Positions 3,949 to 20,622 of a stretch of 23,852 bases of DNA are shown piece by piece. The notes beneath the pieces are model-generated. The model was not told the DNA's origin, made no database searches, and saw only the letters and a program-made list of their open reading frames with translations. The DNA lies in the IMG/VR virus record IMGVR_UViG_3300026097_000103, positions 1-23,852 of that record; one strand, given 5' to 3'. Every line of letters begins with the position of its first letter. Position 1 is the first letter of the stretch. The DNA comes from a virus. Made by a program: the position numbers and the translations under genes.

Positions 3949-5497
3949 AGAACATAGCAATGAACGGCATTGGTTCTATGTCTACGTCATCATGGTCCTT
4001 TACAGTGTCATCAAGTTCTTGATGATAGTTTTGAAGTTCTTGCAACATTCGCACTACCAGCAGTGTACTCATCACAAGATCGTCAGTTTCGCCTGGTTTG
4101 GCAGCATAGCTAGCACCATGTGCGACAAAATTTTTCAGCTCACTGATCAATGGCTTGCTGTAGATGGTCATTCTGTTGCGTTCCACTAGGTTTTTAAATT
4201 TACTGCAGGCCTGTAGTTTTGGCTTGTTACTGGTATTAAATCCTTTTCTTTTGCCTTTTGCTTCGCTGAGAAAGTATCCTCGAATATTGTTTTCGCCGTA
4301 TTCGTTGATACTGATCAGTGCGGCTTCGCCTATGCTGTTGTTTTCCACACTGTAGTAAATGGTAGTGTCATCTTCTACTTTATCAAAAATTTCTTTAACG
4401 ATGTCTGTGAGCACACGGATTTGTCCTGGTATAGGTGTTTTGTTATCTCGCCATTCGGCCACTTGAGTTAGTGTGTTTGCTTCCCATACTTGTATAGCCG
4501 CAGGATCTCCGCCAGTGCCAAGACTAGGGTCAAGACCAATGGCATAAATTCGATTTTTTTCAGGCTGCTTGTACCAACGAACCTGTCCTGTTTTGCGAAA
4601 AGGATCGACACCTTCAAGGTCAATAAGGGTTGTAGGTGCAATCAGTGTTTCATCGTTGATGATAAATTCACAATCCATCTCTCGTCTAAAACGTTCTACG
4701 CCTAGAGCCGCTCGTTGTTCATTTGCCCATGCGTCATCGCGGTCTGGGTGTTCATACCAGTAGCTTCTAAATGCTTTAAATCCGTTTATGCCTGTTTCAG
4801 TTTCATTGCCGTTTTCATCAAAGGTTTTGTTAGCACCTTTCCAGATTAATGCAAACTGGTCTTCGTCGCTGTTTGGCGTACTGGTAATAATGGCTTTACC
4901 ACCAGTTGCCAGTGTAGGACTTATAGAAGTCCAAAATTCTTTGGCAATGGTTGGACGCACAAACGCAAACTCGTCCGAGTACAGCAACGAAATACTCATA
5001 CCACGTCCAGTGTTTTCTGTAGTAGCCTGGCTTACAATACGCGAACCATTGTCAAATTCAACACTGCCTTTGTTATAGCTCACTACTCCTGCTCGTATAT
5101 GATCCGGGCATGCTTCATATGCATACCGTAGCCGTTGCATGATTTCTTGTGCTCCACTGTACTTGTGTGCCGCAATGAGAATTGTGCTGTCGGGTTTAAA
5201 CATGCCGTACCAAAGTAGATAACCTGCAGCAGTGGTTGACTTACCGGTTTGTCTAGGCAACATACTGATGCTGAATCTGTAGCTGTGATATGTTTCGATT
5301 AAACGTTTTTGATATTCATAAGGCTGATACTGCATTTGTCCTTGGGTAGGATGCTGTATTTGGAAAAAATTCTCTAAAAAATACTCAGCACCAGTGTCCG
5401 GGTCTGCGCATTTTGCAAATTCTTCTAGTTCTTTTTCGGTGTAGTCATGTTTTTTGTGCGGCGACTTAACTAATACACCGTCTAGACTTTTACTCAT
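3947..5497 (-). CDS. gp17: Large terminase subunit, T4 gp17 family (packaging ATPase and nuclease)
   Basis: A 516-aa protein (T4 gp17 is 610). It should power DNA translocation into the prohead and cut the concatemer. The ATPase domain has a variant P-loop PRQTGKST (81-88), Walker B SLLYSDEF with Asp175-Glu176, and the coupling motif TSTPN (205-209). The RNase H-like nuclease domain has GLDPS with Asp323, SVENNSIGEAALI with Glu385, and TDDLVMS with Asp472/Asp473, matching the acidic triad of T4 gp17. The N-terminus is shorter than in T4. ATG at 5497 overlaps the SGNH gene's end by eight bases (ATGAGTAA), implying coupled translation. Unusually, its partner gp16 lies over 6 kb upstream. Confidence 0.96.
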   Translation of the reverse strand: MSKSLDGVLVKSPHKKHDYTEKELEEFAKCADPDTGAEYFLENFFQIQHPTQGQMQYQPYEYQKRLIETYHSYRFSISMLPRQTGKSTTAAGYLLWYGMFKPDSTILIAAHKYSGAQEIMQRLRYAYEACPDHIRAGVVSYNKGSVEFDNGSRIVSQATTENTGRGMSISLLYSDEFAFVRPTIAKEFWTSISPTLATGGKAIITSTPNSDEDQFALIWKGANKTFDENGNETETGINGFKAFRSYWYEHPDRDDAWANEQRAALGVERFRREMDCEFIINDETLIAPTTLIDLEGVDPFRKTGQVRWYKQPEKNRIYAIGLDPSLGTGGDPAAIQVWEANTLTQVAEWRDNKTPIPGQIRVLTDIVKEIFDKVEDDTTIYYSVENNSIGEAALISINEYGENNIRGYFLSEAKGKRKGFNTSNKPKLQACSKFKNLVERNRMTIYSKPLISELKNFVAHGASYAAKPGETDDLVMSTLLVVRMLQELQNYHQELDDTVKDHDDVDIEPMPFIAMF

Positions 5498-6248
5498 TGA
5501 TTTTCTCTATTAATTTTTCAGCAACCCTTTGATGAGCACCTGGCCCAGGATGCAATAAATCTCTGGCATAATCATCAGGATGGTCGGGTACAAAATCTTC
5601 TACATCAATTTCATACAAGGGTAAATCTAACTCGGCGCATAACCATCGCACACTGGCTAAATTTTTTATTTTAGCAAGCTCTCGATTTTGCTCACACATA
5701 ATCCAATCCTCATACAGTGCATTATTATTTAATCGAGGAGGTGTCCCGCCTCCTTCAGCTACTACACCGTACACAGATGCTTCCGTAAATCCCCTGCCCG
5801 GTCCGATCCACTCGAACCTTTGATCAAATGTGCTTTGATAAATCACAAACTTTGGTTTCAACTCGGGCAACCACGTAAATGCAAGCCTAGTGCTAGAACA
5901 GTTGCTGCCGCCGCTGTTGCCGAATGTTACAGGATCTAGATCTAATTGTTTGCCTAAAATGCTGGTATAGATTCGATCAAAAGGCAAACTGTCGCCTGCT
6001 GTATAACTGCATCCAAACGCTACAAAATACGGGTTGTGTTCAGGTATCTCTGGACTGCGAAACCCTATACTATTAAATTGATATTCTACACTGATTTCAG
6101 TCCAATTGTGATAGTTCATTCTTTGTGAAAAATGTTTCCAGTTCTTATCAAAATTGTCTTTGTTGTCTTCGCCTTTCCACTGCACTGTTCTATTCCGATA
6201 GTCTGCTTGTAATCCAGTCATTACACTGTTGAAATTTTTGCTTAACAT
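5490..6248 (-). CDS. SGNH/GDSL-family hydrolase-like protein
   Basis: The ATG at 6248 gives 252 aa. The frame also allows a TTG start at 6269 (259 aa), but the ATG has GGAG about 12 bases upstream and only a seven-base overlap with the radical-SAM gene. Numbered from the longer form: YFVAFGCSYTAGD (81-93) is block I with Ser88; GNSGGSN (117-123) could form the oxyanion hole; FVIYQSTFDQ lies at the block III position; and ARDLLHPGPGAHQ (235-247) supplies Asp237 and His240 as in SGNH block V. A complete Ser-Asp-His set suggests an active esterase, deacetylase or acyltransferase. No signal peptide is seen, so it should act in the cytoplasm. The substrate is unknown. It sits between a radical-SAM gene and gp17. 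Confidence 0.72.
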   Translation of the reverse strand: MLSKNFNSVMTGLQADYRNRTVQWKGEDNKDNFDKNWKHFSQRMNYHNWTEISVEYQFNSIGFRSPEIPEHNPYFVAFGCSYTAGDSLPFDRIYTSILGKQLDLDPVTFGNSGGSNCSSTRLAFTWLPELKPKFVIYQSTFDQRFEWIGPGRGFTEASVYGVVAEGGGTPPRLNNNALYEDWIMCEQNRELAKIKNLASVRWLCAELDLPLYEIDVEDFVPDHPDDYARDLLHPGPGAHQRVAEKLIEKINE

Positions 6249-7402
6249 AAGTGACTTAACTCCGGCCAAAGTTCAACAAATCTAGTGGTGCGATTTTTAT
6301 GGAACACATGTTCCATTTCATTTATGTGCGTTTTAAAACGCTTCGTGAGCGGGTCAGCATCTGTGGCAATAGTGGCAAGATTTTGCTTTGCAAGATCAAA
6401 AAAACTGTTTTCATGATCTGTCAGATCATAGTCTCTGGCATAGTTTTCAATTTCCTGTATTGCCAGTTCGCGCGTTTTTAAGTCGTGCTTGGTAGGATCA
6501 AGATAATCCGGTTGATACAGTGTTTGCCACAGAATTTTTGTGCCTATACTGTCTGCGTATTCCCGCAATTCACGCAGTCTAGTACAATTGTATAAATTAT
6601 AAACAGCATGGATGCCGTTCCAGTGTCCACGATCTTTCCAACTGTTGATAAGTCTTGCATTGTGGTCTAACATGTCCCAATCAGCGCCGTAGCGAACATA
6701 CTCAAATCTTTTGCCTACATTGTCAAAACTCATGCTCCAGCTGACTTTCTTACGATCCATTAACTTAGCAACAATGGCATTTTTTTCAAACTCTACACTG
6801 GTGTTTGTTATCAAGGTCACAATGCAATCATCAGGTATTACATCAAGCAAATAATGATTTTCTTTTAACAACAATGGCTCTCCACCTACCAACGCTACTT
6901 CTCGTACACTGTGTTGCCTTTGCTCCACATAGTCACACACCTGTTGTATATACGGCTTTACACCGTCGTGCTTTTGTTCAATGGTTAACAGTTCTTCTCT
7001 GCCTTTGGCAATAGCTGCCCATTTACTACTACAATAAGGTCCACAGTAGTTACAGGTCAAGTTACAGGTAATGTTCCAGCGTACATCAATGATGCTGGGC
7101 GAGTGTTCTTCTAAACTTGCTTGAGTGCTGTCAAAATCAGGATTTACATCGTTGTGCCAATGCCGCTCACTGCGTCCATAACGTTCTGCACTTATACAGT
7201 TATAACAGTACTGTTCGTGCATTTTGCCCGTTTGCAGTGTTGCACGGATTTCCTTCAAGGTATCACTTTGCAGTATTTCATCAATGCTTTTTGTGTTTAG
7301 ATCACCTAGCATGTTAGGGTCACCGGCACAACAGGTTTTTACATCGCCACGAAAGTTTATATGTAGCCCTCGCCATGGTGCGGCACAATAGGTTTTTGTC
7401 AT
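6242..7402 (-). CDS. Radical SAM protein with N-terminal twitch (auxiliary Fe-S) domain
   Basis: A 386-aa protein. The central radical-SAM core has CNLTCNYC (Cys113, Cys117, Cys120), the CX3CX2C motif that binds the SAM-cleaving [4Fe-4S] cluster, and GGEP (173-176) for SAM binding. Before it, CAAPWRGLHINFRGDVKTCC (6-25) with Cys66 and Cys69 forms an N-terminal twitch-like domain that probably holds a second cluster. SPASM/twitch enzymes act on peptides, sugars and other substrates. The substrate here is unknown. The ATG at 7402 starts right at the twitch motif, with no clear Shine-Dalgarno site. The gene overlaps the SGNH gene, suggesting a two-gene unit. It is probably an auxiliary enzyme rather than a virion part. 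Confidence 0.87.
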   Translation of the reverse strand: MTKTYCAAPWRGLHINFRGDVKTCCAGDPNMLGDLNTKSIDEILQSDTLKEIRATLQTGKMHEQYCYNCISAERYGRSERHWHNDVNPDFDSTQASLEEHSPSIIDVRWNITCNLTCNYCGPYCSSKWAAIAKGREELLTIEQKHDGVKPYIQQVCDYVEQRQHSVREVALVGGEPLLLKENHYLLDVIPDDCIVTLITNTSVEFEKNAIVAKLMDRKKVSWSMSFDNVGKRFEYVRYGADWDMLDHNARLINSWKDRGHWNGIHAVYNLYNCTRLRELREYADSIGTKILWQTLYQPDYLDPTKHDLKTRELAIQEIENYARDYDLTDHENSFFDLAKQNLATIATDADPLTKRFKTHINEMEHVFHKNRTTRFVELWPELSHLC

Positions 7403-7459: not shown

Positions 7460-8782
7460 TTAACGGTTAGATAGTTCAGCCCAGCCAAAATTCCAAATGG
7501 CATTTGGGTTATTGTTGGTTGTTTGAACTGCTAGTGTAAGAGTGGTGCTTGTTCCGTCTACATCTCTTTCAAGTTGCAGTCTTTCTTGGATATCAGGATC
7601 AAGTTCAATAACATCTCGGCTGGCGAAAATTTTACTATAAACAATTTCTCCACCGCTGACTGCGTTTGCTGATGTGTCAAGTTGCACTGTGCTACTTGCT
7701 ACATTTGCGTAACTAGCTCCGGTGAGTGTTGCGTCTTTGATCAGTAAAACCTCGCCGTAAACCACGCTGGTTGTAACAAAGTCAATACTTGTTGGTTGAA
7801 CTATAGAATCAGGGTAAGCACTGTTGAGTCGAATTGTAGCCAATGGTTCGATAGTATCACTGGCACCCAAACTTGCTTCTGGTAGACCGCTGCGAGCATA
7901 CTTCACAGTCGGCTTTGGTTGAAATCCGCCTTCTGAAATCACAGTGCTACAAATCTGTTTCATTGTAGGAGTACCAGTGGTAGTGCCTGTATTTTCAATT
8001 TCATAACGACAGTTCAAATTAGCTGTGGTCATGTAGACTTCTGTTTGCCCTGACTGGTTTGCGTGATTAAACACATGAGCAATAAAGAATATGCCATTTA
8101 CAACAAATCCGCAACGTACACTTCCTACACCCAACCATTCAATATCAATCCAAAAAATTTGTGTTAGCGTCGGATCAATTGTTATGCCACTGGCGCCAGT
8201 GCCATCCATTTTGTCTTGATTCCAATCGGCTTGTGCTATTCGTGTGTCAACAGCACTGCCAGTTACATAACTACGGATTACAAGATAGAGATCTTCGCCA
8301 TCAGCTTCAAAAAATACACCATTTTCAGATGTGAAATAGCCAACTCGCTGTCGTAAATTGGGGTGAAGTTCGCTGAATGCAAAAGTGTTCATTATTTGTA
8401 AACTTTTGCCTGGCTGGTAAAGCTGAACTTTACGACCTTGGCGATAAACAAAGTCTCCGTCGGTTGTGCCTACTGCAAGATCAAAACTGCTTTCATTTGG
8501 CAAATATGTTACTGTGCCGTTGGTTTGTTTGGTAGCAAATTGATCTCCGTTGAGATATCTATTGTGACTGTCAAACAGTGTTCGCGGGCTACTAACGCGC
8601 TGTCTACCAAAAGCATCGAGTGTAGTGTCACCATTTACAACAGTGTTCCCTGTGCCCGTTGATCCTGTGTTTACTCTAAGAATAGGCTGGCCAGCTGAAT
8701 TATAATCCATAGCCTGATGAATGTCGTTCAACTGATAATTAGGGAACGGGTGTTCGTAATTAGTTGGGCCCTGAATAGCCAT
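7460..8782 (-). CDS. Putative virion structural protein (DAFGRQRVS family)
   Basis: A 440-aa protein rich in Thr, Ser, Asn and Gly, with predicted beta character and no membrane segments. A hallmark LDAFGRQRVSSPRTLFDS lies at residues 55-72. I associate this motif with structural proteins of marine phages, though I cannot name its position in the particle. Other segments include VGYFTSENGVFFEADGEDLY and FWIDIEWLGVGSVRCGFVVN, typical of beta-sandwich folds. ATG at 8782 overlaps the upstream stop (TAATG), placing it last in the leftward head-protein operon. It could be a head decoration or fibre component. It ends 58 bases before the radical-SAM gene. Confidence 0.65.
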   Translation of the reverse strand: MAIQGPTNYEHPFPNYQLNDIHQAMDYNSAGQPILRVNTGSTGTGNTVVNGDTTLDAFGRQRVSSPRTLFDSHNRYLNGDQFATKQTNGTVTYLPNESSFDLAVGTTDGDFVYRQGRKVQLYQPGKSLQIMNTFAFSELHPNLRQRVGYFTSENGVFFEADGEDLYLVIRSYVTGSAVDTRIAQADWNQDKMDGTGASGITIDPTLTQIFWIDIEWLGVGSVRCGFVVNGIFFIAHVFNHANQSGQTEVYMTTANLNCRYEIENTGTTTGTPTMKQICSTVISEGGFQPKPTVKYARSGLPEASLGASDTIEPLATIRLNSAYPDSIVQPTSIDFVTTSVVYGEVLLIKDATLTGASYANVASSTVQLDTSANAVSGGEIVYSKIFASRDVIELDPDIQERLQLERDVDGTSTTLTLAVQTTNNNPNAIWNFGWAELSNR

Positions 8783-9156
8783 TATCTAGGGTATCCTTTG
8801 AATCCTTTGACAGGGCTGATTGTATTCACTGCATCAGGCTCAGCACTTCGTCCTTCATTGTTTTTTCTGTGTTTGCTACCAAGTGCATCATAGGCTTTTT
8901 CTGTCATAGCACGTTCTTCGTCGGTATAGCCTACAATGTATGCATCATTGCCCATCCAACTTTCTGGATCTGGAACATGCTCGCTGTTGCCATCGCGATC
9001 CATGCCTGCTATTGCCATGCTGGTACGGTATAAGTCGTAGTAGCCTTTGCCCTGGATACCACCAGGACTTGCTTGAGAGTGTGTGTAGTGTTTTTTGCCT
9101 TTGGTTAGTTTGCTTCTAAAACCTTTGACTTCACTGATAAACTCTCTAGCACGCAT
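8782..9156 (-). CDS. Small protein with capsid-targeting-like N-terminus
   Basis: A 124-aa basic protein beginning MRAREFISEVKG. The first nine residues resemble the T4 capsid-targeting peptide (MKTYQEFIAE in the internal proteins), with I-S-E fitting the gp21 protease rule (L/I)-X-E. The body has many Gly, Lys and Tyr (KLTKGKKHYTHSQASPGG, YTDEERAMTEKAYDALGSKH) and ends in SPVKGFKGYPR. I know no function for it. If cleaved and packaged it would be an internal head protein, possibly DNA-binding given its basic N-terminal half. It is joined to both neighbours by one-base stop-start overlaps. Confidence 0.6.
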   Translation of the reverse strand: MRAREFISEVKGFRSKLTKGKKHYTHSQASPGGIQGKGYYDLYRTSMAIAGMDRDGNSEHVPDPESWMGNDAYIVGYTDEERAMTEKAYDALGSKHRKNNEGRSAEPDAVNTISPVKGFKGYPR

Positions 9157-9458
9157 CAGTCGTGGACACCTGCATCGCCGCTGGTTTCAGTGCCTATTTC
9201 CAATGTAGTAGCGTTGCCGCCTACAATAGTAAGTTGATTGCCTACACCTACCCATAGTTCTGTGGTATCATCAGCAGGGCAAACCACTGGTACCGAGTTG
9301 GCTACATTGCCATCATTGTATAAAAATACACTGGCATTGCTGGTAGGCTTACCTGCCAATCTTACCTGCGCTGTTACGCTGTTGGATCCAGTGGAAATGC
9401 GTACTTTATCTGTAGTAATAGTAGTATTTGCAAATGCACCCGAATACACCGTTGCCAT
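9156..9458 (-). CDS. Small putative virion protein, beta-rich
   Basis: A 100-aa protein opening MATVYSGAFANTTITTDKVR. It is full of alternating hydrophobic/polar stretches (SVTAQVRLAGKP, ASVFLYNDGN, ELWVGVGNQLTIVGG) that suggest a small beta-sandwich. Unlike three of its neighbours, it has no capsid-targeting-like start. It could decorate the capsid or a fibre, but nothing identifies it. ATG at 9458 lies three bases after the upstream stop, and its own stop overlaps the next start (TGATG). Confidence 0.6.
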   Translation of the reverse strand: MATVYSGAFANTTITTDKVRISTGSNSVTAQVRLAGKPTSNASVFLYNDGNVANSVPVVCPADDTTELWVGVGNQLTIVGGNATTLEIGTETSGDAGVHD

Positions 9459-9461
9459 TGA

Positions 9462-9965
9462 TTATTTTCCTTTTAGTATTTTACTTACTGGCTTGCTGGT
9501 CCACATTCTACAACTCCAGTAACTGGCTGTGGTTCCATCTTTTTTAAGAGTTTTATCTGCACACTTGTGTCTAGCTCTAAAACTGCGTCTGCGTGCTGGG
9601 TCATCTCGCTTGATTTCCATTTCTTTTGAGCCAAAGTTTACTTTTTTCACATTGCCAGTTTTTGGATCACGCACATATACCTTGAACTTTTTTACATCGC
9701 CTCTCATGGGCTTGTTGAGTTCAACGTCGCGACCTTGATATTCTGCTTCGTCTAATTCGACGTCTTCTTCAAAACTGCATCCACAGTGTTCAAGAATATA
9801 CTGTGCCACTGCATCCATTTCAACTACAATGCCGTCATCTGTGTGTTCTAGCACAGCCAAATCAACAGCTAATTCTTCATTGATATTGCACTCTACAACA
9901 TCTCCAGAGACTGGAAATGCCTGTTGTCTAGCCGTTTCTTTGATGTATTCTTCTAAACTTTTCAT
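9462..9965 (-). CDS. Virion-associated protein with capsid-targeting-like start and DUF5872-like domain
   Basis: A 167-aa protein. It opens MKSLEEYIKETARQQ, close to T4 capsid-targeting peptides, with I-K-E as a candidate protease site. The C-terminal half is a DUF5872-like domain: KPMRGDVKKFKVYVRDP (about 84-100), VNFGSKEMEIKRDDPARRR, SFRARHKC and YWSCRMW. This domain is common in marine phage proteins and its function is unknown. The middle (residues 25-80) is acidic. The combination suggests a protein brought into the prohead and perhaps trimmed there. ATG at 9965 overlaps the upstream stop (TAATG). Confidence 0.7.
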   Translation of the reverse strand: MKSLEEYIKETARQQAFPVSGDVVECNINEELAVDLAVLEHTDDGIVVEMDAVAQYILEHCGCSFEEDVELDEAEYQGRDVELNKPMRGDVKKFKVYVRDPKTGNVKKVNFGSKEMEIKRDDPARRRSFRARHKCADKTLKKDGTTASYWSCRMWTSKPVSKILKGK

Positions 9966-11176
9966 TACTTGCCTTTGTACTGCTTGTAAAGATTGTTCAA
10001 GCCTTCCTTGATACTGTCTTCAAGATTAAGTGCAGTCTTGCCGATCTTTTGCATTGCTAGAGGATTATCACCTGGATTGTTTGGATTTACTTGATTCTTT
10101 GGTCTGTTTAATCCACCAGCAATTGTTTGTGTCATAAAATCAGTGTCTTGTGTTTGCTCTTCGGGCTCGTTTGCATAGTCTTCCATTGTGCATTCGCCCT
10201 CGTGTATTTTACCGCAACTTGGGCAAGGCTCTTTGTATTCACTGCTTTGGAAAAGTCCAGCCATTTTCAGTAGGTGTCCAAGCTTTGCTGCATCTTCGCC
10301 TTCCGCAGATACTGTCATGCTTTGATTACCGTCATTGCCAGCGTTAATGCTAACATTCATGCTTTCTGTTAAAGCGTCGAACTTTTGCTTGAATTCATTT
10401 TCATAAACACTAGGATTTCCATAAACACCAGAACCTGTAGCATTTGTAGCAGTTGCAACTGCTCCGGCTACTGTGGTTTCGTTGGCTTTCTTTTTCTTTT
10501 CAGGTAAGCCTTTATGCTTGGTTCCTGCAAACTTTTTAAGTTCTTTAGTACTCATGTCGCCATCGGCAATTTTTAAAACAGCGTCGCTTGCATCATCGCG
10601 TGGCATATCGCCAGTACGCACAGCATAGGCCATACCCATTAGTTCTTGTTGATCTCTCGAAACTGCTTTTTCTTCTAAATTATCTGTATCTTCTTCATCT
10701 GGATTGGCTTTCATGTAATCACGAGCTGTATCGATATACTCTTTGGCAAGTGTTACTTTCTTTTGTACCCACTCTGGAAGATTTTCGTCGTCGTCGATGA
10801 TATCTTGCAATTCTTCGGCGGCATGTGCAATTGTTTTTGCTTGACTTTTAACCATTTCGCCTTCTTCATCATACTCGTCTTTGTCGTAGTCTTCTTTCAT
10901 TTTTTCAGCGTCTTTGGCAGCTTTTTTCATAGATTCTTCTTTGTCGCCATCTTTGTCGATATCAATATAATCTGGCTTGTCTGCTTCATTTACATCGTCG
11001 GATAACTGATGTGCTGTGCTTTTATCCATTTTTACAGGATAGGTTTTGCCGTCGAATTCAAAAGATTTTTTTCCTGCCTTGGCTGCATCTGCAGCTGCCT
11101 GGTTGAATGCATTTTCTTCAACTTCTGCTTCTTCTACTCGGTTAAAGTTTTCTAGAATTGTGTAAATATTTTCCAT
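9965..11176 (-). CDS. Modular acidic virion/prohead protein with DUF3008-like segment
   Basis: A 403-aa protein built as a string of modules. Residues 1-9 (MENIYTILE) are a weaker capsid-targeting-like start. Then come SFEFDGKTYPVKMDKSTAHQ (38-57), PDYIDIDKDGDKEE (68-81), a helical segment with ENLPEWVQKKVTLAKEYIDT (131-150), a DUF3008-like segment from DQQELMGMAYAVR (175-187) to FAGTKHKGLPEKK (216-228), NVSINAGNDGNQSM to LLKMAGL (274-308), a zinc-like CPSCGKIHEGEC (318-329), and a C-terminal NNPGDNPLAMQKI. It is highly charged. I recall these modules in marine T4-like phage structural proteins. An internal head or scaffold role fits the context. ATG follows AAGGA. Confidence 0.65.
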   Translation of the reverse strand: MENIYTILENFNRVEEAEVEENAFNQAAADAAKAGKKSFEFDGKTYPVKMDKSTAHQLSDDVNEADKPDYIDIDKDGDKEESMKKAAKDAEKMKEDYDKDEYDEEGEMVKSQAKTIAHAAEELQDIIDDDENLPEWVQKKVTLAKEYIDTARDYMKANPDEEDTDNLEEKAVSRDQQELMGMAYAVRTGDMPRDDASDAVLKIADGDMSTKELKKFAGTKHKGLPEKKKKANETTVAGAVATATNATGSGVYGNPSVYENEFKQKFDALTESMNVSINAGNDGNQSMTVSAEGEDAAKLGHLLKMAGLFQSSEYKEPCPSCGKIHEGECTMEDYANEPEEQTQDTDFMTQTIAGGLNRPKNQVNPNNPGDNPLAMQKIGKTALNLEDSIKEGLNNLYKQYKGK

Positions 11177-11187
11177 TGCTGGTATCC

Positions 11188-11763
11188 TTAAATCTTGTAT
11201 GGGTCTGGAATTCGGTTTGTCCCGCCTATCGGGCTCTTTTCTTGTACAGGAAAATCATTTGTGGTTTTAGCTGCCGCAGTTGACCCACCGGCAATTTCGT
11301 AATCTGCACCTTCTGCACTGTTTTGTATGACATCGGCATTGCTGTATGCTTCGCTAGCTTCTTTGCTTGCAGTACTAGCATCGTCGTAGTCTTTTTCTAA
11401 CAGTGGACTTTCTTCAACAGCTTCGGCTTGTTGATTAACACTGTCATCGTATTCAGCTGTAAACACACGAAAATGATCAGGAGATCCACCAGCTTGATGG
11501 AAAAGTTCTGTAAGCTCTTCCTGACTTGCAGGATAATTTAACACTGCATCAATGATGTGTATTTCTTGATTGGCCAATTCTGGAAAACCTGCTGGACTTT
11601 TTTGTACAGGTGTTTTCTTTGGTTCACTTACACTTTCTGGATCATATTTTGCCAGACGTTTTTTCAAGCCGTCTAACACTTCTGGTTGAAGGTCACCGGC
11701 TATTTTAATACGATAGCGATAAGGGTTGGCACTCTCTGCCAGATACTGTTTAAATGTTTTCAT
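11188..11763 (-). CDS. Conserved phage protein with strong capsid-targeting-like N-terminus
   Basis: A 191-aa protein opening MKTFKQYLAESANPYRYRIK. MKTFKQYLAE is nearly the T4 internal-protein peptide MKTYQEFIAE, with L-A-E as a protease site. A compact domain follows (RYRIKIAGDLQPEVLDGLKK, AKYDPESVSEPKKTPVQK, ANQEIHIIDAVLNYPASQEE, about 16-95). I recognise this from marine T4-like phages, without a known role. The acidic, low-complexity tail ends in GGTNRIPDPYKI. ATG at 11763 follows AAGGAAAG. A head-interior role is inferred from the leader and the neighbours. Confidence 0.7.
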   Translation of the reverse strand: MKTFKQYLAESANPYRYRIKIAGDLQPEVLDGLKKRLAKYDPESVSEPKKTPVQKSPAGFPELANQEIHIIDAVLNYPASQEELTELFHQAGGSPDHFRVFTAEYDDSVNQQAEAVEESPLLEKDYDDASTASKEASEAYSNADVIQNSAEGADYEIAGGSTAAAKTTNDFPVQEKSPIGGTNRIPDPYKI

Positions 11764-11788: not shown

Positions 11789-12297
11789 CTGGACGAACTA
11801 TCTTTTTTATTCTTGTCCAATATGGCTTTGAGCAGCTCATTTCTATCTAAAATTTGTGCTTCGCCAGTGGGTATATCATCTGTGTTTTGTTTTGCTTCCT
11901 GTTGGGCTAGCCTAGCCTGTTTTAGTTGCAATTCAATCATTTTTAGTTTTTTGTTTGCTTTTGCTGTTCTTGCTGTGATTGCATGATTGAGCATTTGTCC
12001 TGCAACACTGAAAATTTCGCTGCTGAATCTGCTTTCTACTTGCATACCAAGATCCATCAAATTCTCGTAGCTTTCTATTGCTTTGCTTGCTAGATCATCC
12101 ATTTCGCCATCGCTGGCTTCCAAACCTTTAACAGCAGGCAGGGCATTGTTAATTTTGTCTAATGCACTTAGATCCTGTTGCAAGGACGAAACATCCACTG
12201 GCACATTGTCGGACTCGGTTGTGTCTTCAACTTCTTCGGTGTTTTCTTGGTCAACATCCTCGTTCATGTTGAACAATTCTTCTAATTTTTTTGTCAT
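11785..12297 (-). CDS. gp16: Small terminase subunit, T4 gp16-like
   Basis: A 170-aa protein (T4 gp16 is 164). It should regulate gp17 and recognise DNA for packaging as an oligomeric ring. After an acidic N-terminus (EDVDQENTEEVEDTTESDN), the core from about residue 45 is helical: KAIESYENLMDLGMQVESRF, then SVAGQMLNHAITARTAKANK and KLKMIELQLKQARLAQQEAK. The last is a likely coiled coil for oligomerisation. The tail is charged and ends in KKDSSSS. The core pattern matches marine T4-like small terminases. The start overlaps gp4 by four bases (ATGA). gp17 is more than 6 kb downstream instead of adjacent. Confidence 0.78.
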   Translation of the reverse strand: MTKKLEELFNMNEDVDQENTEEVEDTTESDNVPVDVSSLQQDLSALDKINNALPAVKGLEASDGEMDDLASKAIESYENLMDLGMQVESRFSSEIFSVAGQMLNHAITARTAKANKKLKMIELQLKQARLAQQEAKQNTDDIPTGEAQILDRNELLKAILDKNKKDSSSS

Positions 12298-12719
12298 TGT
12301 CTAAAAATATCGTCCTCTGTGACCACTCTAAACCTAATGCCTTGTCCTTTGCACCACTTTTGTGCGGCATCCCACTTGGCATAATTCACAGCAACAACAG
12401 CCTTTTGTTGTTCACTCATGCGTCCCTCTATTACACTCTGCTTGCGAGGTTTTATTTCAATTAACTCGGCTTTCATTGTGTTGTTTTTGTCACGATAGGT
12501 AATAAAAAAATCAGGAACATAAATGCTCTGTTTGCCTGTTATCGGGTTGCGATAGGGTATTTGTATACTTTCGCTGGCCCATTGCATAACATTGTTATTG
12601 CTATCGCAAAAACGCATAAAAGCAAGTTCCCATCCGCTGCGATAAGTTGGTAATTTCTTGCCTACGTACTTGTCCTTATTTAAAGGAGTATACTTGCCTT
12701 GCGCATACTTTTTTCTCAT
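12294..12719 (-). CDS. gp4: Head completion protein, T4 gp4 (gp50/gp4) family, nuclease fold
   Basis: A 141-aa protein close to the size of T4 gp4 (about 150). It finishes filled heads before tail joining. Diagnostic segments are QGKYTPLNKDKYVGKKLPTY, YRSGWELAFMRFCDS (26-40), VMQWASESIQIPYRNPITGK (44-63), YVPDFFITY (67-75) and AELIEIKPRKQS (84-95). Glu31, Asp70, Glu88 and Lys90 have the arrangement of a PD-(D/E)xK-type nuclease. It overlaps its neighbours by ATGA at both ends, inside the leftward head/tail operon. Confidence 0.93.
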   Translation of the reverse strand: MRKKYAQGKYTPLNKDKYVGKKLPTYRSGWELAFMRFCDSNNNVMQWASESIQIPYRNPITGKQSIYVPDFFITYRDKNNTMKAELIEIKPRKQSVIEGRMSEQQKAVVAVNYAKWDAAQKWCKGQGIRFRVVTEDDIFRQ

Positions 12720-14911: not shown

Positions 14912-17900
14912 TCACTGACTTCCTGCGATCTCTCCGGTGTTCTGGATTCTCAACGGAATGTAAACAAACTCAACTGCCTTGCTAGGCTCAATAGCAACAT
15001 CAACGTATAGTTCGTTGCGATCAATTCTAGCCGGAGTATTATTGCTTTCATCACATACAACCAGATAGTCAAAGATACCACGCTTGGCAATCAAGTCATT
15101 TAACAGTCCTTCGACTACTAATTTAACTTCATCACGTGTGGCCTTGTCGTTTGGCTCAAACAAGAATTGACGTCCAATTTCTTCAAGTCTGCCTCTCAAA
15201 AAGGCAATCAATCGTGCAACGTTGATTCTGTCCAGCGCACTGGTTACACCAGTAGTGGTTTTATTACCAAAGTTTGTTATGCCTGTGCCAGGAATAAACG
15301 TAATTGGGTTTACTTTATTCTCGTAGAGTACATCACGTATGCCTTGGCTTACATTTATGCTTTCAAACTCGCCTGTAGCACTGTCGATGTACCCAATAGC
15401 AGTGGCATTATCAACAACACCTCGTCTCACACCAGCCGGTGCTAACCAAGGGAAGCTGACTTCGTCGCTCCGGATAAATGTTCTTAGCATCATATGACTG
15501 GCTGGCTGTACAACTGTACTACCTGTCAAGTCGCTGGTTTGACAACTTGGGTAAAACACGCCAAGATATGTGTCATTTACAGTCAACCCATCGCCTGTGC
15601 TCAGTCCTGCACCGTTGTTGTTGGTTGCCCAGGTTAACAGTTCGTTTGCATTGTTGCTTAATCTCAATGGTGTATCACCGATTACAAATGCAGTGTTGTC
15701 TCTGTCATTGTTTAGTGTTACCATGTTGCTGTACAACTCTGGATAACCAGGTGCTGCGATCAAGTTAAAGTTTCTCTGTTCTTCGCGCAACTCTACACTG
15801 TTATCCAATGAACTCTTCATTGCTTGCACAACAAGCTGACGCACAGATTGTCTACCCATATAAGGCGAGCCATCGGCTTTATTACCAGCAACTGTGACCC
15901 ATGTGTCAGTTTCTGCTGGAATAGCGCCAGAGAAATCGTCGCTGTTAAAGTAGTTTACACGGAATTCTTTAACGTTGAATCCACTTCTACGAGTATTAAA
16001 CAACAGTGTTCCTGCTGGATACAAGTTTTCGTTTGGTGCATCAAGGTCAAGGTAATCACTGGTTAACAAACTAACAATAGTAGGCAAGTCGCCTGCTACT
16101 GGATCTACTGTTCCGCTTGTTCCCCAACGAGCATCTCCAAATACCACACCGTTTTCAGTGGTTTGATCAGTGTTGTCAAGCAACACCCACTGTAGTTCGC
16201 CGTTTTGTGACTCCCAACGGTAAATTCTTGGATAATTTTCCAGGTCGCTTGAATCAATCCATAGATCACCTTGTACAAGATCGGTGCCATCAGATTGTTC
16301 AGTTGGTGCACTAGCACTTACTAGCGGACCAAGAGGATCCGTGTTACTTAGATCAAAACCTCTGACATCATTGGTTACATTTTGATAACCTTTCCAGGCT
16401 GTACCGTCGTGGATCATTATATCAATCTCATCCACAGCACTGTAATACCACTTGGTACCATCTGTAGGATCTTGATCTGGCGCACTGGTATTCGCGGTAT
16501 AACCGTCAGTGCCGCCTAGTGGAATCCAGTTGCTCAATATCAAGTCGCTGTCATTGCCAGCTCTTACATTACTTAAACTAGAACTAAAACCGGCATCAGC
16601 TACTGGTGTTCCAGCAGTGTCTTTTAGTACAATAACACCGCCTTGTGTATGACGTATTTGCACAGCACCGCTGGCTGTAACACTTGCAGTTGTATTTGCT
16701 ACGTTGGCATTTAGAAATGCTTCAACAAAACTGGTTGCATCTGTGCCATTTAGAGTAGCTGTTACTGCTGTAGTCAGGCTGTTACTGCCATTACTACTAG
16801 CTTGTATTGTAAATGTTTCGCCTATCGACAATGTGGGCGAAGTATTTTCACTGGTAACAACTGTCTGCCCTGTGCTTATTCTTTCAAACAGTTTAAAAGT
16901 CAAGGTATTGTTTTCACTTACATCTGTCTGAGCATATGTTGCGTTTTGGCTGATATTCTGTCCGCCGCCTGCTGGATCAAGTGCGTTGTTTGCTGTTTGA
17001 TCGTTTGCATACATCGGAGCATCTTGTTCAACAAAACTTCCTAACACACTGTCATAACGTTTTACAACAAGATCGGCGCCTTGATTTACTGCTGTGGTTT
17101 TTTGCCAAATACTGCCTGTAGGTCTTGGAGTAGTGTCAGTGCTTCTCCATCTTGGAACTTGTGTGTGTGGCGTTTGTTGCAGTGCTGGACATGCATATGT
17201 ACCAGCAAGTATACCCAACAAGACCAGTGTGTTGCCTGTTCCGTCAACGATATCGATAATACCATCTTCGGTACTGCCGTCGCTGGTTGCGGTACTGTTA
17301 GCATAAAGCTCGAGTTTGTTGTTTACAACTGCGGCTGTTACACCTGTAATACTTGCAGAGTTAATTGCACCAGCTAAACCAGAAATTGTTGCATCTGGTA
17401 CTGTTACAGTATCACCATTGATAACAATTGTAGCAGGAGTTGAAAGAGTTGGGTTGCTGTTTGGCGTTTGTATAGTTGGCCATGCTGTGCACCAATCGTC
17501 ACTTCCTACTAATACCCATCCAGCACTAGCAGTTAGTCCACTGAGTCTGTTGGCTTTATAATACACAGGATTGTTAACATTGGTGTTAACAACAGCATAA
17601 TCGCCGTAGTTTCCGATGCTGTCTTTTGGAACTCCACTTTCTAAATTTGCTGTGTCTGTAATTTCTATAAGTGTTTTATTTGTAAAACTGCTGGTTGTTG
17701 AACTCCATTCGAATACACCATACTGTGTGGTATTCAAGTCAAGCCACCAAGTACCGTTATCAGGATTTCCTGTTGGGCGTACTGTGGTAGCAGTAAGTTC
17801 TGCTAGATCAATATCAGCGCGTACAATAAATGCGCGATTGGTAACCCCTAGCACACTGTATGCAGCTAATAGCCCATACTCGTTGAGCTCGTATCCATTG

Positions 17901-18151
17901 ATTGGTGTGCCGTTGGTTGTTTTGTAGAAAAACGGATTTCCAAAAGTTGTTACAAGCTCTCTTTGACTGGTTACAAGAAAAGGTTTGCCTGCGTTTGCAG
18001 CAGTGGTTCCGCCAGCTATTCCAGTGCCGGTGCCACTTTGTTTGTTCTGTGCTGTAGCAATAACAATGGTAGGCACTGTTGCGGCTGCAGCTGGTAGATA
18101 ATTTGATTCGTCGATTACGGTGACTTCAACACCAGGACTTACTAAAGCCAT
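14912..18151 (-). CDS. gp18: Contractile tail sheath protein, T4 gp18, with very large insertion
   Basis: A 1079-aa protein (T4 gp18 is 659). The N-terminal MALVSPGVEVTVIDESNYLP and TIVIATAQNKQSGTG, and the C-terminal third (about 690-1079: GRQSVRQLVVQAMKSSLDNS, RINVARLIAFLRGRLEEIGR, FLFEPNDKATRDEVKLVVEG, DVAIEPSKAVEFVYIPLRIQ), are clear sheath core. Residues about 125-690 hold inserted, Thr/Asn/Gly-rich beta modules. These include four GxxW-type repeats (about 129-149, 343-374, 561-589, 618-658) and a stretch at 241-282 resembling the flagellin IN motif. Inserted domains probably lie on the outer sheath surface. ATG at 18151 follows AGGATAAAAAT. A perfect late promoter lies upstream, and a hairpin terminator follows the stop. 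Confidence 0.93.
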   Translation of the reverse strand: MALVSPGVEVTVIDESNYLPAAAATVPTIVIATAQNKQSGTGTGIAGGTTAANAGKPFLVTSQRELVTTFGNPFFYKTTNGTPINGYELNEYGLLAAYSVLGVTNRAFIVRADIDLAELTATTVRPTGNPDNGTWWLDLNTTQYGVFEWSSTTSSFTNKTLIEITDTANLESGVPKDSIGNYGDYAVVNTNVNNPVYYKANRLSGLTASAGWVLVGSDDWCTAWPTIQTPNSNPTLSTPATIVINGDTVTVPDATISGLAGAINSASITGVTAAVVNNKLELYANSTATSDGSTEDGIIDIVDGTGNTLVLLGILAGTYACPALQQTPHTQVPRWRSTDTTPRPTGSIWQKTTAVNQGADLVVKRYDSVLGSFVEQDAPMYANDQTANNALDPAGGGQNISQNATYAQTDVSENNTLTFKLFERISTGQTVVTSENTSPTLSIGETFTIQASSNGSNSLTTAVTATLNGTDATSFVEAFLNANVANTTASVTASGAVQIRHTQGGVIVLKDTAGTPVADAGFSSSLSNVRAGNDSDLILSNWIPLGGTDGYTANTSAPDQDPTDGTKWYYSAVDEIDIMIHDGTAWKGYQNVTNDVRGFDLSNTDPLGPLVSASAPTEQSDGTDLVQGDLWIDSSDLENYPRIYRWESQNGELQWVLLDNTDQTTENGVVFGDARWGTSGTVDPVAGDLPTIVSLLTSDYLDLDAPNENLYPAGTLLFNTRRSGFNVKEFRVNYFNSDDFSGAIPAETDTWVTVAGNKADGSPYMGRQSVRQLVVQAMKSSLDNSVELREEQRNFNLIAAPGYPELYSNMVTLNNDRDNTAFVIGDTPLRLSNNANELLTWATNNNGAGLSTGDGLTVNDTYLGVFYPSCQTSDLTGSTVVQPASHMMLRTFIRSDEVSFPWLAPAGVRRGVVDNATAIGYIDSATGEFESINVSQGIRDVLYENKVNPITFIPGTGITNFGNKTTTGVTSALDRINVARLIAFLRGRLEEIGRQFLFEPNDKATRDEVKLVVEGLLNDLIAKRGIFDYLVVCDESNNTPARIDRNELYVDVAIEPSKAVEFVYIPLRIQNTGEIAGSQ

Positions 18152-18240: not shown

Positions 18241-18585
18241 ATGAGAAAACTCTGCCCAACATGCAAACAAAACCCTGTAGCCATAAACTGTTATAAGGGC
18301 AGTAAGGTTTATTATCGATCGCAATGCGATCGTTGTATACGTGCAAAGAAGAAATTACCTAAGCAAGAACCGAGATGGAAAAATGCAGGGTACGAAAAGA
18401 AACGTGTGTGCGATCGATGTGGTTTTAGATCGAAGTATGCCAGCCAAATAAGTGTGCATCACATAAACGGCAATCTCAATGACACAAGCGGATACAATTT
18501 AAGAAGTATTTGTTTAAACTGCGCAGAAGAAATTAGAAAAAGCGGAATGCCTTGGTCTACAAGTGATCTTGAACCAGATCTTTAA
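18241..18585 (+). CDS. Small zinc-finger, HNH-like protein
   Basis: A 114-aa protein on the strand opposite its neighbours. Paired cysteines occur at Cys5/8, Cys29/32, Cys57/60 and Cys91/94. The second half, CDRCGFRSKYASQISVHHIN and then GNLNDTSGYNLRSICLNC, follows the HNH pattern: a zinc pair, His73-His74, Asn86 and a second zinc pair. The last His usual in HNH endonucleases is absent (CLNCAEE), so catalysis is doubtful and a DNA-binding role is possible. I recall similar small proteins in many cyanophages. A CTAAATA box and AAGGAC lie before the ATG. The 3' end overlaps the dNMP kinase gene tail-to-tail by 29 bases. Confidence 0.75.
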   Translation: MRKLCPTCKQNPVAINCYKGSKVYYRSQCDRCIRAKKKLPKQEPRWKNAGYEKKRVCDRCGFRSKYASQISVHHINGNLNDTSGYNLRSICLNCAEEIRKSGMPWSTSDLEPDL

Positions 18586-19218: not shown

Positions 19219-19494
19219 CTAGCGATATTTGTTAAGACGAGATATGAGTCTACTTGACGGGTTGACTCTTTTGGTTTTCTTTGCTTTGCGTGCTTGGCGC
19301 ACTTTGGTCTGTGCACGAGTTTTTTTCATGCGAATTGATTGTGCTACATCGGGTGCTTTTGAGCAATCTGCTACGTTTGGCACTGTACGTCCGGCTCTGG
19401 GTCCACTCATGCAACGCCATTTCATACTGACTTTACCGCTTTTACTGCGTTTCCAAACCATTTTATGTTCAGGAATAAATTCTGTACTACGCAT
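19219..19494 (-). CDS. Small basic conserved phage protein
   Basis: A 91-aa, very basic protein from the ATG at 19494, which overlaps the upstream stop as TAATG. A TTG five codons earlier (19509) is in frame, but the ATG fits the overlap style used across this window. EFIPEHKMVWKRSKSG leads to RCMSGPRAGRTVPNVADC and then a Lys/Arg-rich tail (MKKTRAQTKVRQARKAKKTK). I recall similar proteins in marine T4-like phages but no function. The basic tail suggests nucleic-acid binding. Confidence 0.7.
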   Translation of the reverse strand: MRSTEFIPEHKMVWKRSKSGKVSMKWRCMSGPRAGRTVPNVADCSKAPDVAQSIRMKKTRAQTKVRQARKAKKTKRVNPSSRLISRLNKYR

Positions 19495-20274: not shown

Positions 20275-20282
20275 TATTTATC
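20275..20282 (-). promoter_or_regulatory. T4-type late promoter before gp13-like gene
   Basis: GATAAATA on the minus strand, one base from TATAAATA, 20 bases upstream of the ATG at 20255. It overlaps the last codons of the DUF59 gene. AAGAGA between box and start is a weak ribosome site. Confidence 0.55.
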
Positions 20283-20622
20283 GACTACTGAAAATTAAAT
20301 TATCTCGATCGACACTGTCACTGAAATCATATCCCAAGGCTAATTTTGCTTCGTCGCTCATTCTGTCAGGTGTAAGCGGTGGGTCAAAGGTAACTTCTAC
20401 ACTCACACTGTCCATGCCACTTGCGGCTTGCACAGCTGACTTGACTTCTGCAACAATATGATCTGCCATTGGACAAAACGCACTAGTCAGTGTCATCAAC
20501 ACGTGGCAATTTTTCTGAGATTCATCAACATTGACCTCATAGATTAATCCAAGGTCGTACACATTGATGCTGATCTCTGGATCATATACTTGTTTTAATG
20601 CATCAATGATTTGTTGTTTCAT
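20278..20622 (-). CDS. DUF59/MIP18-family iron-sulfur cluster assembly protein
   Basis: A 114-aa protein matching the family that includes SufT and PaaD, which help mature Fe-S proteins. VYDPEISINVYDLGLIYEV (12-30) has the family's DPE(I)-x4-DLGLI motif. VLMTLTSAFCPMADHI (41-56) carries the conserved Cys50. VTFDPPLTPDRMSDEAKLAL (77-96) matches the typical PPxTxDxMSxEA tail. No extra domain is present, and its 114 aa is about the usual size. It is ATGA-coupled to the 378-aa gene and just before gp13-like. It is probably a host-derived auxiliary gene that supports host or phage Fe-S enzymes, such as the radical-SAM protein here (inference). Confidence 0.85.
   Translation of the reverse strand: MKQQIIDALKQVYDPEISINVYDLGLIYEVNVDESQKNCHVLMTLTSAFCPMADHIVAEVKSAVQAASGMDSVSVEVTFDPPLTPDRMSDEAKLALGYDFSDSVDRDNLIFSSR

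Follow-up and report, generated by a model that had tools for sequence, protein, structure and literature searches.

Probable capsid-targeting tags on a cluster of genes downstream of gene 4 in T4-like and jumbo phages

In phage T4, the capsid-targeting sequence is the mark of counter-defence proteins that are injected, and this leader is all that the internal proteins Ip1-3 have in common (PMC12373910). Residues 4 and 7 of the leader are the main determinants of targeting, and residues 8 and 10 those of processing (PMC9026906). An earlier note on a T4-like phage fragment of 23.9 kb (23,852 nucleotides of IMG/VR record IMGVR_UViG_3300026097_000103; hereafter the window) had proposed that four neighbouring genes begin with sequences of this kind. 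Here, we asked whether these short N-termini represent a common import and processing signal, and which proteins carry it.

The large terminase of the window is ~54% identical to the terminases of the jumbo phage PA5oct and its relatives. On the minus strand, neck genes and a dNMP kinase precede the tail sheath (14912-18151), which is followed by a pair of tail-tube genes, a small gene and the head-completion gene 4 (12294-12719, minus strand). A 170-aa gene and the tag cluster come next, then the gene for a 440-aa virion structural protein and, beyond two insertions of unrelated kinds of gene, the terminase. The two insertions (6242-7402 and 5490-6269, both minus strand) encode a radical SAM/SPASM protein and an SGNH-hydrolase-looking protein, and the same pair is present in G001, a near-sibling contig of 182 kb with 82-84% DNA identity to the window. 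Next to the start of the sheath gene, the plus strand contains an HNH-like ORF (18241-18585); in PA5oct, a Hef-like homing endonuclease flanks the sheath gene at its other end (L262, 722-2338). Among the neck genes, a 114-aa gene (20278-20622, minus strand) has by eye the look of a PaaD/MIP18-type iron-sulfur assembly protein.

All four ORFs named in the earlier note are present in the run, on the minus strand and with the N-termini and coordinates given there. In the order of transcription, the run consists of a 191-aa protein (11188..11763; MKTFKQYLAE at 11734-11763), a 403-aa acidic protein (9965..11176; start MENIYTILE), a 167-aa protein (9462..9965; MKSLEEYIKE at 9936-9965), a conserved but untagged 100-aa gene that starts MATVYSG (9156..9458) and a 124-aa protein (8782..9156; MRAREFISE at 9130-9156). 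The claim that all four starts fit (L/I)-X-E held for MKTFKQYLAE, MKSLEEYIKE and MRAREFISE, which belong to conserved tag families, but not for MENIYTILE, as discussed below. A search for further proteins with the same start, which had also been suggested, revealed a fifth tagged gene, encoding a 91-aa strongly basic protein (27 K/R and 4 D/E; 19219..19494, minus strand; MRSTEFIPE at 19468-19494). Two types of tag could be distinguished, one of 10 residues (MKxFxxYLxE) and one of 9 residues (MRAxEFIxE). MKTFKQYLAE and MKSLEEYIKE have the hydrophobic positions 4 and 7 and the (L/I)xE end of the T4 type, and MRAREFISE and MRSTEFIPE fit it in a 9-residue register. The conserved families match the starts of T4 ipII and ipIII (MKTYQEFIAE) and ipI (MKTFKEF).

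To estimate how often such starts occur, we used 80 loci (G001 and 79 others) gathered by similarity of gene 4 and not by tags. A strict tag was defined as M, 4-6 residues, an aromatic residue or His, L/I, any residue and E, ending at residue 9-11; a loose rule required only an [LI]xE start. The strict tag was found at 100 of 895 predicted gene starts and at 1 of 4569 internal methionines, a rate ~500 times higher at gene starts (Fisher p ~2e-79, which serves only as a guide because related sequences are not independent). Tagged genes were located at +2 to +7 after gene 4, with only one match further upstream. When the internal-methionine rates of these 80 related loci were applied to the five genes of the window run, the loose rule (4/5 genes) gave p ~6e-7 and the strict rule (3/5 genes) p ~1e-10. 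Across the whole of G001, loose [LI]xE starts were not enriched (15 of 206, p = 0.09), so the signal is specific to the cluster. The tag itself is real and far above chance.

Conservation dropped sharply right after the glutamate of the tag in alignments that were in part tag-selected, and the tag was still kept when homologues were collected by body-only searches and aligned without tag selection. Apart from M1, no residue is better conserved than this glutamate (P1), and the residues that follow vary freely; in the 9-residue type, K, Q or R is frequent at P1', and small residues follow the 10-residue type.

For the 191-aa protein, predicted to be cut after E10, all 40 body-only homologues at the gene 4 loci have Y-L-x-E at residues 7-10. 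The protein matches PHROG 14802, a virion structural protein, and its gene is nearly universal in place (43/45 at +2 after gene 4). Among cultured relatives, Atu_ph07 has MKTLQDYLTE and 121Q has MNRLQQILTE; the annotated start of the Atu_ph07 protein (AUZ94910; L263, 8001-8756) lies 87 bases too late, with MKTLQDYLTE upstream of it. The PA5oct homologue is annotated as structural by ESI-MS/MS, an annotation that concerns presence in the virion; it begins MKSFRDYYDA and has lost LxE, so not every relative depends on the motif. That the sole relative with stated virion mass-spectrometric support has lost LxE is the main weakness of our interpretation. A scan of PA5oct for other tagged cargo found none, its one strict match being spurious. 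In the AlphaFold model of the 191-aa protein, the tag lies in a helix (residues 4-11) ahead of a confident ferredoxin-like domain (residues ~14-107). A fold search with this model returned the ferredoxin-like or ribosomal-S6-like arrangement (Z ~7), which is common, and the modelled fold gives no indication of function; in a viral library, the matches were mostly unnamed phage proteins. The 'Ip7 protein' of Escherichia phage MX01 matched the model only weakly (E 5e-3) and is taken as no more than a lead.

The 9-residue tag of the 124-aa protein, with a predicted cut after E9, is similarly retained: F-[ILV]-x-E occupies residues 6-9 in 30 of 31 body-only homologues at the gene 4 loci. Relatives carry tandem paralogues of this protein, which share a nearly invariant C-terminal SPVKxFKGYPR and diverge strongly elsewhere; AlphaFold gave only a low-confidence model. 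The G001 homologue of the 91-aa protein starts MRSEDFLPE, and the two belong to a tagged family of 12 (cluster 4).

In the case of the 403-aa protein, which contains a DUF3008 module, MENIYTILE was rejected as a capsid-targeting tag, since only 5 of 34 relatives have [LIV]xE at residues 8-11. In the remainder, the protein starts with MTFFYDLNKKL... or MNNMYDILAKMNLLEG..., and [LIV]xE comes later, often as LNE|G or LNE|R. If the protein is processed at all, VEE16 (11129-11137) would be a likelier candidate site than ILE9. It is probably a virion protein; its positional counterpart in PA5oct carries a structural annotation from ESI-MS/MS. A short hydrophobic motif (LLKMAGL, DILRLAGV or MLSLAGINE) is repeated in this family and its positional counterparts (window 9965-11176, minus strand; L262, 6633-8129; L264, 8637-9617), and is possibly a docking motif.

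Cleavage of such tags would call for a prohead protease. The gp21-type enzyme whose presence the earlier note had made a check of its proposal was indeed found in the near-sibling G001 (Peptidase_S77, E 1.3e-28), the window fragment itself being without the gene. Peptidase_S77 was also detected in 6 of 9 other large relatives, and the remaining three are contigs of 110-123 kb that may be incomplete. In G001 and 19 relatives, the border of the major capsid protein that homology to T4 gp23 predicts to be the cut site has P3 = L and P1 = E in 20/20 sequences, mostly as YLKE|N, YLQE|S or HLxE (YLQE|SS in G001). Thus, the motif of the tags recurs at the predicted processing site of an unrelated capsid protein in the same genomes.

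The 167-aa protein appears to contain a second prohead-protease site. Behind its tag lie the rest of an acidic propeptide (residues 1-73) and a conserved basic domain (residues 74-167) belonging to PHROG 7595 (match over residues 70-155, E 1.5e-16); the net charges are -17 for the propeptide and +16 for the mature part, and copies of the protein within the cluster have tag-like starts. The predicted site, LDE73|AEYQGR (9747..9755, minus strand), is located where the variable N-terminal part meets the conserved domain. Of 76 homologues, 75 have E at P1, all have A at P1' and 72 have one of LIVM at P3, and the predicted cut at this site is better supported than that at the N-terminal tag of the same protein. 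Isolates that lack S77 have the PHROG 7595 domain as a small protein of its own. Among these, the closer homologues start exactly at the LDE73|A border (MAKYKGR, MAKYQGR, MATYKGK), the more diverged ones have short N-termini of their own, and in CRP-6 the domain is inside a longer unrelated protein and the site is absent. In the S77-positive HTVC008M, Melnitz-3, immuto and C48C1, on the other hand, the domain is extended with [LM]xE in front of it, and the C48C1 homologue is also tagged (MKKFKQYIDE). With shared ancestry ignored, the form extended with [LM]xE was found in 4/4 protease-bearing and 0/12 protease-free isolates. Free where the protease is absent and extended, with an LxE-type site, where it is present, this domain offers a natural comparison for prohead processing.

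The tag is also attached to bodies that have nothing else in common. Scanning viral contigs at the DNA level for MRAxEFIxE gave at least 120 matches, compared with 10 for the same codons reordered; 69 of 83 were at ORF starts among the matches listed and read, and 1 of 10 in the reordered control. The tagged ORFs gathered here formed 38 clusters of mutually dissimilar bodies, ~35 of them with credible gene starts. An SLT transglycosylase match was just above the curated cut-off, weak ART-PolyVal/DUF3990, PARP, GNAT and M78 matches were below theirs, and strongly basic small proteins were present as well. A PDB sequence search with a GNAT-like tagged protein returned nothing relevant. One contig, G006, has five tagged genes in 20 kb, two of which encode similar GNAT-like bodies. 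In a tagged protein of 542 aa from the same contig (L288, 4766-6391; G006, 64466-66094), the modules are separated by repeated QGVAEG-like linkers. These are similar to [LIV]xE|G sites and may represent multiple points of protease cleavage. Of 83 tagged starts (L332-L411), 33 are closely preceded by TAAATA, which resembles the T4 late promoter, compared with 13-21% when all the genes of four genomes are counted; tagged starts with TAAATA often lack a clear Shine-Dalgarno sequence.

Taken together, it is likely that these phages possess a T4-like capsid-targeting system, in which internal head proteins are imported by means of N-terminal tags and processed by the prohead protease. We base this reading on the conservation of the tag and its confinement to the cluster, on the protease gene of the sibling contig, on the matching capsid-protein site and on the recurrence of the tag on unrelated bodies, all of them features of the sequences. 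The tag would be a short segment, probably a helix, that contains hydrophobic or aromatic residues and ends in an [LIV]-x-E protease site, and it would dock the protein onto the scaffold core. The S77 protease (gp21) would then cut after the glutamate at the same time as it processes the capsid protein, and the mature protein would remain in the head with the DNA. While we infer import into the prohead and cleavage of the tag in this way, DNA binding by the basic mature parts is only plausible: the 167-aa protein would probably be cut again at LDE73, releasing a free 94-residue basic domain that may bind DNA. Injection into the host is suggested by the enzyme-like nature of tagged bodies, and, like the function of each cargo, it is speculative.

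Several other explanations should be considered. That the N-termini resemble each other by chance or by shared gene ancestry, with no common signal, is very improbable: E-rich phage proteins often give LxE and loose starts are not enriched across G001, but the strict excess at gene starts, the retention of the tag by body-only homologues, the mutual dissimilarity of tagged bodies and the reordered-codon control are all difficult to reconcile with such an origin. We also regard it as unlikely that the segments are uncut docking helices for the portal vertex, neck or tail, [LIV]xE being the end of an amphipathic helix. The surroundings of the cluster (tail, neck and head-completion genes), the PA5oct homologue that keeps the start and not the LxE, and the P1' of the 9-residue type, which is not small, would agree with docking. 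However, a helix that stays uncut hardly explains why the P1 glutamate is most conserved and the residues downstream are free to vary, why the capsid-protein processing site has the same motif, why proteins of protease-free phages naturally start at the domain border of the 167-aa protein, or why the starts match those of T4 internal proteins.

A further explanation, tentative in our opinion yet deserving more weight than docking, is that the tagged proteins are transient scaffold or core components for head assembly, which are degraded or kept rather than delivered as cargo. It shares the tag and protease mechanism with capsid targeting and differs only in purpose. The near-universal position of the 191-aa gene suggests an assembly role, and both the 403-aa protein and the propeptide of the 167-aa protein are acidic. 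On the other hand, folded or basic parts would be left after the predicted cuts, and the enzyme-like tagged bodies in relatives have no obvious use in assembly.

The proposed capsid-targeting system resembles that of T4 IPI, IPII and IPIII (and Alt) in the short tag with hydrophobic or aromatic residues and (L/I)xE on otherwise unrelated proteins, in the S77 protease (gp21) and in the small basic proteins. It differs in that the bodies are not the same, the genes follow gene 4 near tail and terminase genes, there is a second tag of 9 residues, one protein is bipartite and has a further predicted cut at LDE|A, and the tags occur in marine or freshwater T4-like and jumbo phages. In phiKZ-like giants (phiKZ, SPN3US), N-terminal propeptides of head and inner proteins are also cut after glutamate (PMC5694885), but their motif is A-x-E or S-x-E and the propeptides are mostly long. 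The present tags have only 9-10 residues, and we rejected the phiKZ-type motif for these proteins, since the P3 position is occupied by L, I or V in the tags and by L in all 20 capsid proteins. The C-terminal domain of the 167-aa protein is shared with the small PHROG 7595 proteins of pelagiphages and roseophages; it is free in small phages without S77, whereas here it is preceded by an acidic propeptide that begins with a tag and ends in the predicted protease site. Injected polyvalent proteins with ART/GNAT-type domains have been described (PMC7824862), and the weak ART, PARP and GNAT matches of tagged bodies recall both these and T4 Alt, another injected enzyme. Unlike them, the tagged proteins are single small proteins with a short tag, and their domain matches are mostly below curated cut-offs. 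Our search of open-licence papers found no report of a capsid-targeting sequence for cyanophages or these jumbo phages.

A broader proposal, for and against which we find the balance about equal, is that the tag is a portable import code of 9-10 residues on dozens of unrelated proteins, including ART-, acetyltransferase- and transglycosylase-like enzymes, and that its presence is enough to recognise a large, undescribed set of injected proteins in uncultured T4-like and jumbo phages. As the tag predicts exact mature N-termini, its cleavage could be checked by proteomics. With a tag conserved in marine and jumbo T4-like phages, probable head cargo, and among it candidate injected proteins, may be listed from sequence alone.
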